Shown piece after piece: positions 46,028 to 54,188 of a stretch of 64,000 nt of DNA. Each line of letters begins with the position of its first letter. Position 1 is the stretch's first letter. Where the stretch lies: NCBI GenBank assembly GCA_963920575.1, contig OY986968.1, positions 27,100,129-27,164,128 of the forward strand, written 5' to 3'. Under the pieces are notes generated by a model, which had not been told where the DNA came from, ran no database searches, and saw nothing but the letters and a program-made list of their open reading frames with translations. The stretch comes from Narthecium ossifragum. Its lineage: Eukaryota; Streptophyta; Magnoliopsida; Dioscoreales; Nartheciaceae. Made by a program: the position numbers and the translations under genes.

Positions 46028-46563
46028 GCACAAATCGTGACGCAGTTTATACATTAACAGGGTGTATATGCCCCTAAGACGTCTACAACGAATATTTGCC
46101 TTGGGAGAAAGAACATGGTAGATACAGGCATATAGGCTGAGTTGGCCGTCTATTTATGGCCTGAGATGGCATCAGCGTTGGAACTTAAACCATGAGCTTG
46201 TACACAGGAAAGGAGTTCAAATGGAACCAATTTACAAGCAGATTTGTAAAAGAGGAGTTACGCTGACTACTCTATTTTAGATTGCTGTCCTAGTATATGT
46301 GTAGTGTTGACCATACATTGGTCCATATGATGTAGAAAGTATTACTTTGAAGTATATAGTTGGTGGCCTTCAAAATCAGTTGCTTTGTGATCTGTAGTCT
46401 TTTTTCCCCTTATATTCTTTGTTGAGCATATGGTTCGCAAGGCTTTGCATGCGGAACTCTTTGATGGTCCGTGGTTTTGCAGGTCTACTACCATTCTAAT
46501 TGAGGCGTTTGTTTCTCTTGTAAACAGTGGTAAAATTTGCTCTTCCAATCACCTGTTGCTGAA

Positions 46564-46607
46564 GGGTGCGGCTATCCGCACCACCGTTTCGACTCAACAC
46601 ACCACAT
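46564..46607 (+). repeat. MULE left TIR
   Basis: 44 bp identical to the inverted right end. It begins with a self-complementary hairpin, GGTGCGG-ctat-CCGCACC, and ends ...caacacaccacat. Confidence 0.95.
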
Positions 46608-47106
46608 CATTTTTCATACCCAAAAGACCCATTGGTGATATGTCCAAACTAACCTTCTGAAATACAATACACCACAAAACCTAATCTACCATAAGATTTA
46701 TTTCTCAATACACCATAACATCACATCTTCTCCTACCTCTAACCATCATTTTCTCCTTCTCTTATTACCGAATTTTCACCTCCAATCCCTAACCATCTCC
46801 TCCCTCCAAGCCCTAGGTCTTCAAGTTACTCACTCCCCCTCCCTCCAAGCCCTAGGTCTTCAAGTTATTCTATCTTCTTTCTTATCCTCCAACACATTCA
46901 CATTATACTCCAAACCATCTCCTCCAACCTTAGGTTTTCAACTCACACAAGCCCTCCCCATTATACATTGTCAATCCAAGGTGTCTTAGGTCGAAATGGA
47001 TGGAGAAGACGAATGCTGGAGCGAAGGAGACGAGAAAAGGCGCTCAAAAAATATACATTTCCTTTTCTCTTGTTTTTTTTTTGTCCTTCTCGGATCGCGT
47101 TTTGAT

Positions 47107-47296
47107 CGGTAGTATCAGACCGACAGAAAACGTCAACGTATCGGTATGTAGAACCCGATACTTTGGCTTAATGTACCGGTAACATAATACTGATTAGTAT
47201 GCTATGTATACCGAGACGTATCCACCGAAACTATAGCTTTATATACCGGTAAAATGGTACCGATTCATACGTTAGTATACCGGTACCATGGTACCG
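47107..47296 (+). promoter_or_regulatory. Dyad cluster A (CGGTA-N6-TACCG), upstream of the transposase
   Basis: Perfect 16-bp dyads lie at 47247-47262 and 47281-47296. Decayed ones start at 47107, 47142, 47177 and (weak) 47212. Starts are 34-35 bp apart throughout. The cluster sits between the left TIR and the first transposase exon, where a promoter and transposase-binding region are expected. Confidence 0.8.
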
Positions 47297-47330
47297 ATGT
47301 GAACACAGTGTTGGCTACCTGCCTTACTAA

Positions 47331-50103
47331 CTCTTTGCTTACATTCATGAGCATGTTTCTACTGATGCGAGCGGTGTAGGAGCTATAATTACTCACGACT
47401 ACACCTTGGAATTCACGACCAGTACGGTATGTTGTTTAATCGCTATATCTTGCCGGACGACAACTAGGTCTAAACTTCATTAACATAATTCTTATTGTTT
47501 GGTTATAGATATTTCAAAGTCGACAAGCACTTGTCCAATGGGTACAGACAGTTGGGAGGCAGAATGGGCTGGTGATTGTGACAAAAAATTCAGAGGCCGG
47601 GGGGTGTGGTAGAAAGCCGAGGATTACCTTGGCATGTGAGCGCAGTGGAGAGTATCGGAAAACTGTGAAGAAAGATGATAGCGGGAAGAAAAAATTTGCC
47701 AATCGAAAGAAAAAATCCATCGACTCCGGGACGAAGAAGTGTGGATGTCCTTTCAAGCTTCAGGGTGTGAAGCTTGTATCTGATGATGATTGGATGCTAA
47801 GAGTTCTTTGCGGAGTCCACAATCACTCCCATGCGGATCACCTCGAGGGTCACTCGTTCGCGGGAAGATTATCTGCTGAACAAAATGATATGGTGGTTAC
47901 GATGTCAGCAAACCTAGTGAAGCCACGGCAAATCCTGAACACTATAAAGCAACAAGATCCTGAAAACGTATCCACCATGAAGACCATCTACAATGTACGC
48001 CAAAGGAATAAGGTGATTGAAAAGGCTGGGAGATCAGAGATGCAGCAACTATTGAAGCATCTAAATGAGTTTGGATACGTTGAGTATCATACGGTTCGAG
48101 AAGACACAGACGTTGTGAGGGACGTATTCTGGGCACACCCTGTGTCTATTGATTTAGTCCGTGCATTTCCCGAGGTGTTGATTATAGATTGCACCTACAA
48201 GACCAATAGATATCGACTTCCACTGCTAGAGATTGTTGGCGTCACGTCGACGAGTATGACATTCGCCGCAGCTTTTGCCTACATGGAGTGTGAGAAGGAG
48301 GACAGGTACACATGGGCTTTGAAAATATTAAGGATATTGTTGGAAGGATGCCCAATGCCACGCGTTGTGGTGACAGACCGAGAACTGGCTTTGATGAACG
48401 CTATCAGCTCGGTCTTTCTGGAGTCCAAAAGCATGCTATGTAGATGGCATATCCAAAAGAACGTAGAGCTCAGCTGCAAACACATTTTCGAAACTGCAGA
48501 TAAAGCCGACTTGTTTATGACAATGTGGAAATTGGTTGTAACTGCATCTACCGAGGAGGAGTACAAGAAACACTTGGAGACACTAGAGACATCTTTTTGC
48601 GGTTACCCAGCAGCTTCTAAATATGTTCGGAAATCGTGACTGGATGGCTTCAAAGAATTGTTCGTCAGTGCTTGGACTGACGAATATATGCATTTTGGCA
48701 ATCACACTACAAACAGGGTAGAGAGTGCACATGCCAAGTTAAAGAGGCATCTCGGGGCATCCAGCTGCAGTTTTGACACATCGTGGGCTACTATTCACTC
48801 CCTGCTTGAGCTGCAACACTGTGATATCAAAGCCTCCTTTGAGAAGAGCAAATACATTGTGCATCACAGTTTCAAGCCGGCCATCTTCAAGGAGCTGCGA
48901 GGCTTCATTTCAAAGAGTGCTCTTTTAATAGTTCAAAAAGAATCTGAGAGGGCCAATGAGATCGGTGCGGATAAGTTCGCATGTGGTTGTACAGTCCGAC
49001 GCACACATGGCTTGCCATGTGCCCATGAGATCGCCAACTACAAGCTTGATTGCCGCCCCATACCCCTAGAATGCATACATCACCATTGGCGAAAGCTTGA
49101 CTTGTCGGCTACACCAGCCAATGAAATCCCAAAACTTAAGTGCCAAAATGCTCTAGAACTCTTGGAAAACAAATTTCTAGCTCAGAATGAGGCAGGAAGA
49201 ATGCATTTGCTGAAGAAAATGTATGAGCTAGCAGAACTGCAGTCTAGTTATGTTCTTGAGCCAGAGGTGAAGTTGAGGACCCGCGGTCGACCAAGCGCTA
49301 AGGAGAAGAAGTTGATGCTCTCAACACAATGCGACCCATCCGCCTTTGAGTATGCACCTTCGTTCAAGGACAGTAACTCACTAGAGGAAACTCCTCTACA
49401 TGTTAGTCCCATATCTTGCATGAAACCAGAGAAGCCTGATATAGTCAAAAAAAAGCGTCCAAAGGAGAGAGTGCTAAGGGCTCGGACAGCCGCTCCGCTG
49501 GGCTATCTTGGCGAGTTTCCAGAAGGGTTGACAAAATATATTAAGCATGTTAAGGATGTTGCATCAGATGGTAACTGTGGCTTTAGAGCGATAGCCGGGC
49601 TATTGGGCTACGGCGAGGACAACTGGGCCCAGGTGAGGAACGATCTTATCAATGAGTTGCGTGATCACTTCGAGGGCTACCTTAAGTTGTTTGGGAATGA
49701 AAAGCGTGTTCACGAGCTTATGTACTCATTGTCGTTTCTTGAAGACAACCCTCTACCCGATCGATGGATGACCATGCCGGACATGGGTTATATTATTGCA
49801 TCACGATACTCGGTTGTCCTACTCCACATCTCCAGAAGACAATGCGTGACCTTACTGCCACTTTGGACAGCAGCGCCCCCGAAACCGGCACGGAGGATCA
49901 TCGCAATCGGGTTCGTAAACGGAAATCACTTTGTTCAACTCCACATGCAGCCTGGATGTCCAATGCCACCAGTAGTCAGCAGCTGGGCTCGATATCGAGA
50001 TGCTTGTGCCATTGGATGGGATTCCTATAACGATGAGATAGAAAAATTTGGGTTAATCGTGTCATCAAATGTTGCTACAACGGACACCATAGATCTTGAA
50101 TGA
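47331..50103 (+). pseudogene. MULE transposase fused to an OTU protease domain; one in-frame stop
   Basis: An exon ending at 47426 (open from 47331, no ATG seen) splices across 47427-47508 to a frame open from 47509 to 50103, except for a TGA at 48637-48639. In order: a FAR1/WRKY-GCM1-like zinc-binding region (FQSRQALVQWVQTVGRQNG; KCGCPFKL; GVHNHSHADH), a DDE core (IIDCTYKTN, VVTDRELAL, NRVESAH for the likely E), a SWIM finger (CGCTVRRTHGLPCAH), a linker, and an OTU domain with DGNCGFRAI (Cys) and NGNHFVQLH (His). The transposase cuts and joins element ends in the nucleus; the OTU part is a ubiquitin-type cysteine protease fold. The stop falls between the second D and the E, where a tryptophan codon TGG would fit. 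Confidence 0.9.
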
Positions 50104-50264
50104 AAATTTGGGTATTAATGTCTTATATGATTTTCAATATGAATATCTTGTCTGGTTGTAAACATTGTGTTCCAAACATTGTATGAGTATCTTGTATGGT
50201 TGTAAACATTGTGTTGCAAAGGGTTGCTTCATACTCTGTTTTTTTTTATTAAGTACGCAACTAT

Positions 50265-50826
50265 CGGTACCCAAGTACCGATAATAACCTAGACACATAT
50301 CGGTACCATACTACCGGGTTTATACGCGACAATATCGGTAATTAGATACCGTTACAAAGCCAATCAAGTAAAACAAACACTGTCTCGGTACTCACTCTTC
50401 CGAACAATGAAGCATTTTATCGGTACTATACTACCGATACAACATGGAATCAAAGGCAGGCGTAAGCTGCGTTGTATCAGTAGTATAGTACCGATAAAAT
50501 GCTTCACTGTTCGGAAGAGTGAGTACCGAGACAGTGTTCGTTTTACTTGATTGGCTTTGTAACGGTACTCACGCTTCCGAACAGTGAAGCCTTTTATCGG
50601 TACTCTACTACCGATCAAACAAGGAATCAAAGGCAGGCGTAAGCTGCGTTGTATCGGTATCATAGTACCGATAAAATGCTTCACTGTTCGGAAGTGTGAG
50701 TACCGAAACAGTGTTTGTTTTACTTGATTGGCTTTGTAACGGTATCTAAGCACCGATAGTGTCGGGGATACATCCGGTAGTATGGTACCGATATGTATAT
50801 TGGTTGTTAACGGTACTTGGGTACCG
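50265..50826. promoter_or_regulatory. Dyad cluster B, between the two MULE genes
   Basis: Eight perfect CGGTA-N6-TACCG sites start at 50265, 50301, 50336, 50421, 50598, 50655, 50775 and 50811; near-copies start at 50478 and 50740. Many starts are 35-36 bp apart, with two gaps of 57. The region follows the transposase stop and precedes the end of the PMD gene, so it is 3' to both. Confidence 0.85.
50367..50745. repeat. Duplicated inverted repeat between the MULE genes
   Basis: A foldback of about 85-bp arms (50367-50455 against 50481-50563, loop with ggaatcaaaggcaggcgtaa) is followed by a second, similar foldback offset by 177 bp. Each arm includes CGGTA dyads and the shared blocks aatgaagc(a)ttttatcggtac and gcttcactgttcggaag. 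Confidence 0.85.
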
Positions 50827-51032
50827 ATAGTTGCGTACTTGATAAAAAAAAAGAGTATTTGGGAGGGAGGTTTAATTCTACATTGTAAACACATCCATAC
50901 ATTGATAACACGTCTATACATTGTAAACACATCCATACATTGATAACACGTCTATACATTGTAAACACGTCCATACATTGGATCCAATTAAGTTCATACA
51001 TTGGAAACACATTCATACTATCAATATATATG

Positions 51033-53065
51033 CTATTCTCTGGTTCGTTGTTTAGATCTTCTCTCGTAGGCGCGCTCCGTGTCAGTCTCGCCGCGGGCTA
51101 TTCTTTGATCCCGCGCCCACCTACTCCTATGGTTGTCAATGGTCAGGGTATCCATGTGCGCCACGGTGTCGTCGATGATCGTGACAATCCTATCATACTG
51201 AATTTCAAGAATTCGAAACAAATTAGACATAATATTACACGCTAGTATTTCATTTCCATTTAGAATTGCTAAAAAGTTACCTTCGCCGGTAGATAATCAT
51301 CTGCATGTTGAGCCTGAAAACTCCTCCGCTCTGGGTTTATGAGCTTCACATGAGATATGGATCGATACCAGTCATAATACCCATCCACGCAGTCATACCC
51401 ACGGAGAGCATACTCGCCCGTCCGGCATAGAGCAGTGCAGTGGCTTGGCCAATCAGCCCAGAACCGCGGCTCATAGTGGAAGGCCCTCTTGTACCCTCGG
51501 GCAGTCTCCTTGGCTCCCATGTGGAAGTGGGTTGGCCTTAGTGGGGCGGCGGGAATAGTCTGTACGATCCCGAATTGCCGAAGCACCCGATCAGGATGGT
51601 ACGGCTCGACGTGCTCCCCGCTGCTTATGGTGCCGAGGAAAAAGCTAATATCATCACGAGGGAAGGGGCCTCCTCTATGTCTGACGTATGGGTCCCACAC
51701 AACCTGCAACCATACTCATAGTAAGGGAATCAATATTTGATCACTACTGAATATATTACAAAATTCAACACGGCTTCAGACAAAGATTACAACTCACCTG
51801 ATGTCTACTCAGGGAATCAATCTGTGCGCGCCATTGTAGCAGAGCCATTTCCGGATCCTGACCTGGATCTTTGTGATCCAGCCACGCAAGAGCAGTCGGC
51901 GCGTCAACCGTGTATTCTGGGTCGGGCTGTGGCTTTATAATTACCGGGAGGTGATCATATATCCATGCCTGCATTGATTTAAAAAATGTGGGTCAGTCAC
52001 AACTATTGGTATTATATCACAAAGCAGATGTTTTTAAAAGTACGTACCTCCGCCAGAGTCAAGTATCCGCCAATTGCCCTTGTCCCCCATCGACTGGCAG
52101 AGCCAAGCATGCGATAGAGGTAGACGAGGCCGGCGGCACCCCACGCATACTCACACACGGTATCCAAGTCCGTGAGGGCAGAAAGGCAGGACACGTGAAC
52201 CTTCGACCCCGACTTGTCGCAAAAAAGGGTGCAACCCAGCAGATACATAATGTATGCCTTGACAGAGCACTCCAGGCCGACCTTGCGGAGAGTGCACTCT
52301 CTCCTCAGCCAGGTCATACTAACTGACAGCCCTCTCCCATCCAACTGGCTCGCGGCCTCTGCTTCACTGACTCCCAAATGAACCTTCATAAGCGCTTTCA
52401 GCTGGGAGACTTTCAGCTTGCACTCTTCAAGCGGCCTACCGGCGACGGGGATGCCCAGTATACGGCTCACGTCACCCAAAGTTATCGTCATCTCTCCACA
52501 GGGCAGGTGGAACGTGTTCGTCTCCGGGTGCCACCTCTCGACGAACGCCGACACCAGGGCACTGCTTATAGTCTTGTAAGAACACACCGTCAGATTTGCT
52601 AGACCGGTGGCCTCCACGGCATTCTTAAAGTCTTGCCGTTCGATGCCGTCCCATTTCAAAGTGGACAGCCCATGCGCATAAATTTTTAGTGGCCCACGCT
52701 CCTACGTTGAGAAGGGGAAAAGTGAGCAGACTTTGATATAAACACGGCATGATATAAAAAAAAACTCAGCCTTTTTTTACCGCTCCAGCCCATATCCGAT
52801 ATGCCACGTGTGTTTTGAACTCCGTCAAAACCGACCGGTCAACAGGCCCACCAGGGATGGGTGCCTCGTCATCAGACACCTCTTCCTCTTCACCAGGGCC
52901 AGCAACCATCAAGGCATCCTCTGGGATCTCCTCTGGAATCTCCTCAGGTACCGCTCTCCTCCTCCTAGCTGAGGCCGTCGGCCGGTCAACGCGGGCCGAT
53001 GAAGATGTCGATGCCGCCGAAGATGAAGAGGCTCCGGCGGGTGCTTTTCCCCTTGGATGAACCAT
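51033..53065 (-). CDS. Plant mobile domain (PMD/MAIN-like) protein carried by the MULE
   Basis: Five exons on the minus strand join in frame: 53065-52781, 52701-52048, 51968-51798, 51703-51281 and 51197-51033 (1698 nt, 565 aa), with GT-AG introns. The N-terminal 90 residues are Ser/Ala-rich, then acidic (EEIPEEIPEDAL, GEEEEVSDDEA). The PMD follows: ERWHPETNTFHLPCGEMTIT, LGDVSRILGIP, CEYAWGAAGLVYLYRMLG and on to WDPYVRHRGGPFP. PMD proteins such as Arabidopsis MAIN and MAIL1 act in nuclear gene and transposon silencing, and PMDs are common in plant transposons. Here it is the second gene of the element, convergent with the transposase. No stop or frameshift is seen. Confidence 0.9.
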
Positions 53066-53108
53066 TTAACTGTTTTGAAAAAGAAATGCAAAGATTAGTA
53101 GAGTGTTT

Positions 53109-53348
53109 CGGTATCCATATACCGGCAATTAAACGTTATTAACGGTACCTAAGTACCGGTAATAAAGCATACATAGCGGTAGTAAGGTACCGATAGTTTC
53201 CAAATAATATCGGTACCTTGATACCGAACAAGGTCTTTTCCATTCAGCAACAAACGTATTGATCGGTATCTATGTACCGATCAACAATCCTATACTATCG
53301 GTGACTATGTACCGATATTATAGAGAATCATTCGGTTGTCTTGTACCG
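53109..53348 (-). promoter_or_regulatory. Dyad cluster C, upstream of the PMD gene
   Basis: Perfect CGGTA-N6-TACCG sites start at 53109, 53143, 53177, 53211 and 53264; near-copies (CGGTG, CGGTT left arms) start at 53299 and 53333. The first four are exactly 34 bp apart. The cluster begins 44 bp upstream of the PMD start codon, so it overlaps the expected promoter. Confidence 0.85.
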
Positions 53349-53882
53349 ATTGATACGTATAAAACTGAAAGGTCGGAACCCATTGGAAAAATTTGAAAAC
53401 CTTGGAAAAAAACGCATTCGGAGAACAATGCTGCAAAACCAATGCTAGGTATGCAAAGAAAATGCATTTCATGCAACAAGAAATGAAAAACTCACTTGTC
53501 CCCTCACCTCACTCGACGGTTCTCACTCGACGGACTCGACGGAGGCGTGGGTAGCTCGCCGGCGAGGCTCTGCCGCGGGTGTAGGGAGGCTGGCAACGTT
53601 CGTGAGACACACAACTGGGAAGGTGGAGGGAGATGGTCGGGAGAGTGAAGAGAGGGAGAGACTTCGGTAGAAGAGGGAGGGAGGAAGTCTCGGTAGAAGA
53701 GGGGAAGAAGGTAGGGGCTGGAGTGGGCTGAGGGGTAGTGTAGGTATTTTGGGTTTTGTTTAGGGTTTAGGGTTTAGTGTGGTGTGGGGTTTGAGGGTAG
53801 TTTAGGTAAGTACATGTATTTTGTGTGGTGTGTTGAGTGAAATTAGGGGTTTTCAAACTTGGGCTAGGGTGTGTAGAGTAAA

Positions 53883-53926
53883 TGTGGTGTGTTGAGTCGA
53901 AACGGTGGTGCGGATAGCCGCACCCG
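53883..53926 (-). repeat. MULE right TIR
   Basis: Inverted copy of 46564-46607, 44 of 44 identical, ending GGATAGCCGCACCC next to the 9-bp target duplication. Confidence 0.95.
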
Positions 53927-54188
53927 TTGCTGAAATGACAAAGAGTTTTGAGTGTTGTAAGGTATATGCTGCTTCAAACATCCTGGGAAATGCAGCTCTG
54001 GATTAACCCGAGACAGCTTATGACCTGTAATTGAAAACTAACTTGCATTTCTAGTAACACCCTGTTTTGAAACGGACTTAAATCCAGCAAGTAGTAATAC
54101 TTCCTACAGATTCTGAGAAGTTGATGGTTTGAGTGTTTCTGCTATTAAGTTACATCTTTGGCCTTTTTTATAGCCACAAGCTGTTATC

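Follow-up and report, generated by a model that had tools for sequence, protein, structure and literature searches.

Arrays of a palindromic motif in a Mutator-like element of Narthecium ossifragum as candidate docking sites of the element's own PMD protein

We analyzed a stretch of 64,000 nucleotides from Narthecium ossifragum (GCA_963920575.1, contig OY986968.1, positions 27,100,129 to 27,164,128 of the forward strand), hereafter called the window. It contains a Mutator-like element (MULE) of 7,362 bp (46564-53925), whose non-coding parts carry arrays of a short palindrome, CGGTA-N6-TACCG, referred to below as the dyad. The terminal inverted repeats (TIRs) of the element are 100% alike over 44 bp, and the target-site duplication (TSD) GTTGCTGAA stands at both ends. 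Two convergent genes are present (Table 1). One encodes a protein with the MULE transposase domain (PF10551, E 2.2e-24, 86.2 bits, cut-off 27.6), and the other encodes a plant mobile domain (PMD) protein (Pfam PMD, PF10536, 141.6 bits, cut-off 34.9). One in-frame TGA (48637-48639) interrupts the transposase exon, and therefore the window copy is unable to make full transposase. The coordinates given for this gene are those of its main exon. A FAR1-like region and an OTU-like C-terminus of the transposase both scored only below the Pfam cut-offs; that the C-terminus is OTU-like is our own reading. A kinase encoded nearby reaches at most 58% identity, with Musa proteins, among the 120 matches listed for it.

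Table 1. Features of the element, in window coordinates
Feature	Position	Strand	Basis
Left TSD copy, GTTGCTGAA, 9 bp	46555..46563	.	by eye
Left TIR, 44 bp, identical to right TIR	46564..46607	+	
Dyad block 1, 5 dyads (2 perfect), 5′ of the transposase	47107..47296	.	
Main transposase exon	47509..50103	+	Pfam domains
Dyad block 2, 10 dyads (8 perfect), between the convergent 3′ ends	50265..50826	.	
PMD gene, 5 exons, 565 aa, open throughout	51033..53065	-	hand splicing, GT-AG introns
PMD exons	53065-52781, 52701-52048, 51968-51798, 51703-51281, 51197-51033	-	predicted by hand
PMD exon 2, within the VANC21-like fold	52048..52701	-	
Dyad block 3, 7 dyads (5 perfect), from 44 bp 5′ of the PMD start codon	53109..53348	.	
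Right TIR, 44 bp	53882..53925	-	
Right TSD copy, GTTGCTGAA, 9 bp	53926..53934	.	by eye

Dyad arrays and the constraint on their arms

The element holds 22 dyads, of which 15 are perfect, six have one mismatch (starting at 47107, 47177, 50478, 50740, 53299 and 53333) and one has two (47142). The recount agrees with the preliminary description of this DNA, which had listed 15 perfect and about 7 near-perfect dyads in three blocks, with a fixed 6-bp spacer, conserved arms and a variable spacer sequence. Among spacers of 0 to 30 bp, perfect inverted pairs were found 15 times at 6 bp and twice each at 26 and 27 bp, with no others; the pairs at 26 and 27 bp are arms from neighboring sites. Alignment of the 22 sites revealed a longer palindrome of 22 bp, TATCGGTA-N6-TACCGATA, in which the outer bases are 64-86% conserved; this exceeds the 16 bp given previously. 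Information content averages 1.69 bits per column in the arms, 0.38 in the spacer and 0.15 in the far flank. At zero or one mismatch, 21 dyads occur in the window, compared with 0.44 ± 0.66 (largest 2) in 100 dinucleotide shuffles. Dyads with exactly two mismatches number five, one of which lies inside the element.

The spacing of the sites is regular. Start-to-start distances within blocks are 34-36 bp in 12 of 19 cases, placing the sites about 35 bp apart, and across six elements 59 of 115 intervals measure 33-36 bp. Block 2 sits in an inverted repeat whose 208-bp halves (50236-50443 and 50648-50855) are 91% alike, together with a tandem duplication of 177 bp, and its ten sites are therefore not independent events. 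Regular spacing and duplication would fit arrays that are a functionless by-product of tandem repetition. However, the 12 sites in blocks 1 and 3 show 90% likeness in their arms, compared with 34% for the spacers and 30% for the linkers, and the arms are still conserved when only the left half of the block 2 repeat is used (1.66 vs 0.34 and 0.18 bits).

Sister copies were obtained by a genome search with PMD exon 2 (best 150 scored matches of 994 candidates), and block 3 was compared in 29 of these copies with the window as the reference. Differences were found in 37/1,995 cells of the arms (1.85%), 39/1,203 of the outer arm bases (3.2%), 88/1,191 of the spacers (7.4%) and 240/2,640 of the linkers (9.1%); PMD exon 2 of the same copies differs by 2.1% (pN/pS 0.36) and the flank beyond block 3 by 5.9%. 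Thus, the arms change 4-5 times slower than the spacers and linkers, which bears out the expectation, formulated beforehand, that sister elements would conserve the arms more than the spacers. Counted by variable position (26/70 vs 70/134; Fisher p 0.054, rank test p 0.004), the contrast is weaker than by cell. Given the slow change of the arms, we regard a functionless by-product as very improbable. Within the arms, CpG positions differ by 2.6% and the remaining positions by 1.3%. PMD intron 1 (52702-52780) differs by 0.7% in these copies, less than exon 2.

Conserved arms around a free spacer could also reflect DNA or RNA hairpins (8-bp stem, 6-nt loop), acting for example as cruciforms or as sources of small RNA. 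Every dyad could fold, block 2 is a large inverted repeat, and the imperfect dyads at 47177 and 53299 would retain a G-T wobble pair. However, the complementary pairs summed over six elements numbered 592, against 588.7 expected with partners re-dealt, and 4 of 60 column tests gave values of at most 0.04, which is about chance. A Watson-Crick change on the opposite side restores none of the seven imperfect dyads of the window, and the loop length is constant. With no excess of covariation, a hairpin function is not supported, and it seems hardly credible to us.

The foldback formed by the inverted repeat of block 2 (50236-50855) lies between the convergent genes, where read-through would yield double-stranded RNA that could feed silencing. 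A 38/19-bp tandem repeat (TACATTG...) without dyads, at 50879-50980, adjoins the block.

Genomic distribution and dispensability for transposition

The genome searched was the 379-Mb assembly, with the reversed dyad pattern as the control. Perfect dyads numbered 6,732, compared with 378 for the control, and the dyad is not private to the MULE family of the window. The earlier statement that the dyads are restricted to the MULE is therefore correct for the window, where all 21 dyads at zero or one mismatch lie inside the element and none outside, but not for the genome, where arrays occur elsewhere. No PMD or transposase match was found in the fetched 2.6-4.3 kb around six dyad clusters on contig 1 (L002 and L050-L054); L002 came from the genome count, and L050-L054 were chosen by eye, non-randomly, from the first 2.9 Mb.

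Dyad clusters without a PMD match fit hitch-hiking of the motif, but they would also fit a host transcription factor as the binder, in which case the dyads would be promoter or enhancer sequences of the usual kind that many elements have copied. The position of dyads 5′ of both genes would agree with a host factor as well. However, one block lies between two 3′ ends, and the motif varies between subfamilies in one genome (see below), a variation that one host factor alone would leave unaccounted for. In addition, we know of no plant factor that binds this palindrome, although no search was made for one. Overall, a host factor is an unlikely explanation of the arrays.

Two of the six clusters, L050 (1455-1850, 2553-2865) and L051 (1700-2055), were read closely enough to be called short elements; these span a few hundred bp and consist nearly entirely of near-perfect dyads. 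Their palindrome is even longer, at 26 bp (CCTATCGGTA-N6-TACCGATAGG). The spacings are often 28, 35 and 49 bp, and the element ends resemble GATTGGTGCACATGTCACGTG.

The first 19 bp of the TIR occur exactly 81 times in forward and 69 times in reverse orientation in the genome (control 0). Ten copies were fetched, chosen from the first 100 of the 150 TIR places as convergent pairs separated by no more than 4.41 kb; longer pairs are represented by the window element and the element of subfamily F. Seven of the ten are short (606-1,057 bp), with ends 78-95% like those of the window element across 42-59 bp, and none of the seven contains a dyad at zero or one mismatch (L058 has a lone 7-of-8 core match). 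The other three measure 3.1-4.4 kb and are deletion copies in which blocks 1 and 3 are retained. A perfect 9-bp TSD flanks eight of the ten copies, namely six short ones and two deletion copies; the third deletion copy has 8 of 9 bases, and the short copy L057 has no TSD. Since dyad-less short copies are flanked by perfect TSDs, elements with these ends move without dyads. The dyads are dispensable for transposition, although which transposase mobilized each short copy cannot be told.

This result bears on the possibility that the dyads are sites of the element's transposase, used for transposition or self-regulation. MULE transposases bind their own ends, the transposase of the window has a weakly matching FAR1-like region, and wherever a related transposase was identified in a fetched element, dyads were present too. 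In contrast, the seven short copies with the TIRs of the family lack dyads even though six of them bear the mark of movement, and the dyad is absent from the TIR. The start of the TIR forms a small palindrome of its own, GGTGCGG-CTAT-CCGCACC (46565-46582 and 53907-53924, by eye).

Motif variation between subfamilies and the fold of the PMD protein

Eleven loci from six subfamilies (A-F) were oriented, and at least one dyad block adjoins the PMD gene in all eleven. Dyads in these sister elements were called with the core TCGG-N10-CCGA at 7/8 matches or better, a procedure that favors that core; when inverted 4- and 5-mers were counted without this bias, the highest counts in all six elements covered still belonged to frames of this palindrome. 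The motif of subfamily E differs around the TCGG core, with T outside where A-type half-sites have A and TT inside instead of TA. The E-type motif TTCGG-N10-CCGAA occurs 1,123 times genome-wide, compared with 307 for its control.

Subfamily D separates the two genes. All three transposase trees join D to E (support 100). The PMD trees join D to F (89-99), and once outgroups are included, E branches outside the set of A, B, C, D and F (98). These trees indicate that transposase and PMD genes were reshuffled between subfamilies. The D motif is A-type, with a summed divergence of 0.70-0.74 from A and 1.22-1.52 from E. Because D combines an E-type transposase with an A-type motif, the motif follows PMD, and by this comparison motif change agrees with PMD and not with the transposase in one lineage. 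The motif thus diverges with the protein between A/B/C/D/F and E, with D as the one informative lineage; two more PMD groups on the E side, with about 71% and 67% identity to E, lie beyond the loci compared. The comparison gives indirect support to PMD instead of the transposase as the binder. Together with the lack of any block of at least three dyads within the 4.2 kb fetched 5′ of the D transposase, it makes transposase sites a decidedly unlikely explanation.

Several subfamilies have features of their own. In 29 kb around one B copy, the sole match to the window transposase is a FAR1-type open reading frame (ORF) with 26% identity, which lies past the outermost dyad block and may belong to the host. 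C-type elements (L036, L041) contain two PMD genes each, with dyad blocks beside both. D-type elements (L042 with L047, L048 and L055) are much larger and encode an Ulp1 protease (PF02902) and a GRF zinc finger (PF06839), both above cut-off, as well as a DUF1985-like ORF (below cut-off), a PMD gene and a transposase, and thus possibly two VANC-fold proteins per element. The search for the E motif also found four TTCGGTN6-10CCGAA palindromes on contig C1 (13279959-13280072), mostly TTCGGTG...CACCGAA with spacings of 33, 28 and 33 bp, which are perhaps a further motif type.

The preliminary description had named the VANC proteins of Arabidopsis VANDAL elements as the closest parallel, and modeling of the PMD protein strengthened this comparison. 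The predicted PMD fold matches the crystal structure of VANC21 with DNA, and no other fold matched by the model was informative. The PMD profile aligns with DUF1985-like proteins. DUF1985 matches at E ≤ 0.01 were obtained for 11 of the 46 sequences of the PMD alignment (best 1.1e-4); the window PMD reached 20.1 bits, against a curated Pfam cut-off of 35.1. DUF287 was not found in PMD exons 1, 2 and 4 (Pfam scan, E ≤ 0.1). Among PDB sequences, neither the PMD profile nor the DUF1985-like protein of the D element had a match, and hence the direct link of PMD to VANC21 itself is by fold only. The latter protein also gave 1,525 candidates in a protein collection, none at E ≤ 0.001. Judging by the fold match and the profile alignment, the PMD and VANC proteins seem to share an ancestor, which would underlie the VANC parallel.

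A putative role for PMD on its own element

VANC21 binds motif arrays in the non-coding parts of VANDAL21 and causes methylation loss (Hosaka 2017, PMC5735166). As far as the consulted parts of that paper and of a later one go (Sasaki 2023, PMC10398659), the two systems resemble each other in several ways. Both have a MULE-borne protein of the same fold (predicted for the window PMD) and short motifs in dense arrays in the non-coding regions of its own element, and in both the motif varies between related families. An unrelated element can also bear the motif, as AT9TSD1 of Arabidopsis bears VANC6 motifs (PMC5735166). Unlike VANDAL, the window element bears 44-bp TIRs, its protein is a PMD and not, by Pfam's cut-off, a DUF1985 protein, its 22-bp site is palindromic around a spacer of fixed length where VANC has a one-directional 9-base motif, and the function is a prediction. 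Angiosperm PMD-MULEs likewise encode a MULE transposase and also carry a PMD gene, which often lies antisense (Ikeda 2017, PMC5418596; Dupeyron 2019, PMC6446971), and a captured PMD was already speculated to serve anti-silencing (PMC5418596). The passages of these two papers used here contain neither a target motif nor a relation to the VANC fold.

The VANC-like predicted fold and the arrays beside the genes suggest that the dyads are probably where PMD docks on its own element. We therefore favor, with some reserve, a model in which the dyads are sites bound by dimers of the PMD protein that the element encodes, acting against host silencing in the way of VANC on VANDAL. A PMD dimer would occupy each 22-bp palindrome, with one subunit per TATCGGTA half-site and half-site centers 14 bp apart, and such dimers would fill the arrays 5′ of each gene as well as the one in the 3′ region that the genes share. 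If it acts as VANC21 does, PMD bound there would counteract host silencing and keep coding copies active. Short copies would need no expression and hence could dispense with the sites. Direct binding, dimerization and anti-silencing, as opposed to plain activation, are what we infer beyond the computed arrays, constraint, dispensability, fold and agreement with PMD in one lineage. As each half-site contains a CpG, we would guess that binding could itself read methylation.

Several points weigh against this model. Dimerization is read from the DNA alone, and VANC21 sites are one-directional whereas those of the window are palindromic. The DUF1985 matches all fall below Pfam's cut-off, PMD and VANC are too distant for sequence search, the PMD profile having no match among PDB sequences, and a common fold need not retain the DNA-contact residues. 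Arm constraint counted by position reaches p 0.054 only, and the lineage argument concerns a single discordant lineage, D, known from two copies. In the F element, blocks of at least three dyads are confined to the middle and to the 5′ side of the transposase, with none 5′ of PMD, and the clusters L002 and L050-L054 show no PMD or transposase match in the fetched DNA. Finally, MAIN and MAIL1, which are host PMD proteins, act in favor of silencing (PMC5418596, PMC7156037).

MAIN and MAIL1 have the PMD domain in common with the window protein but, in the sections of PMC7156037 and PMC9899485 consulted, act in the opposite direction from our proposal, and the motif linked to them differs from the dyad. 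This motif, 'DOWN' (CATGCAGTTT in the MORC1 promoter), was proposed as possibly recognized by MAIN/MAIL1, and their contact with chromatin was stated as unknown (PMC7156037, PMC9899485). A wider proposal, which we advance tentatively as a possibility short of probable, is that PMD and VANC (DUF1985) proteins form one superfamily of sequence-specific DNA binders. In that case a second system of anti-silencing would operate in PMD-MULEs, its sites being dimeric, palindromic and CpG-containing and their specificity evolving along with PMD, and MAIN and MAIL1 would be members that may bind their own promoter motif directly. The fold match, together with a defined 22-bp candidate site that tracks the PMD lineage, brings the function of PMD and the contact of MAIN and MAIL1 with chromatin within reach of a gel shift. 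The findings suggest that transposon anti-silencers and host silencing factors have one DNA-binding fold in common.

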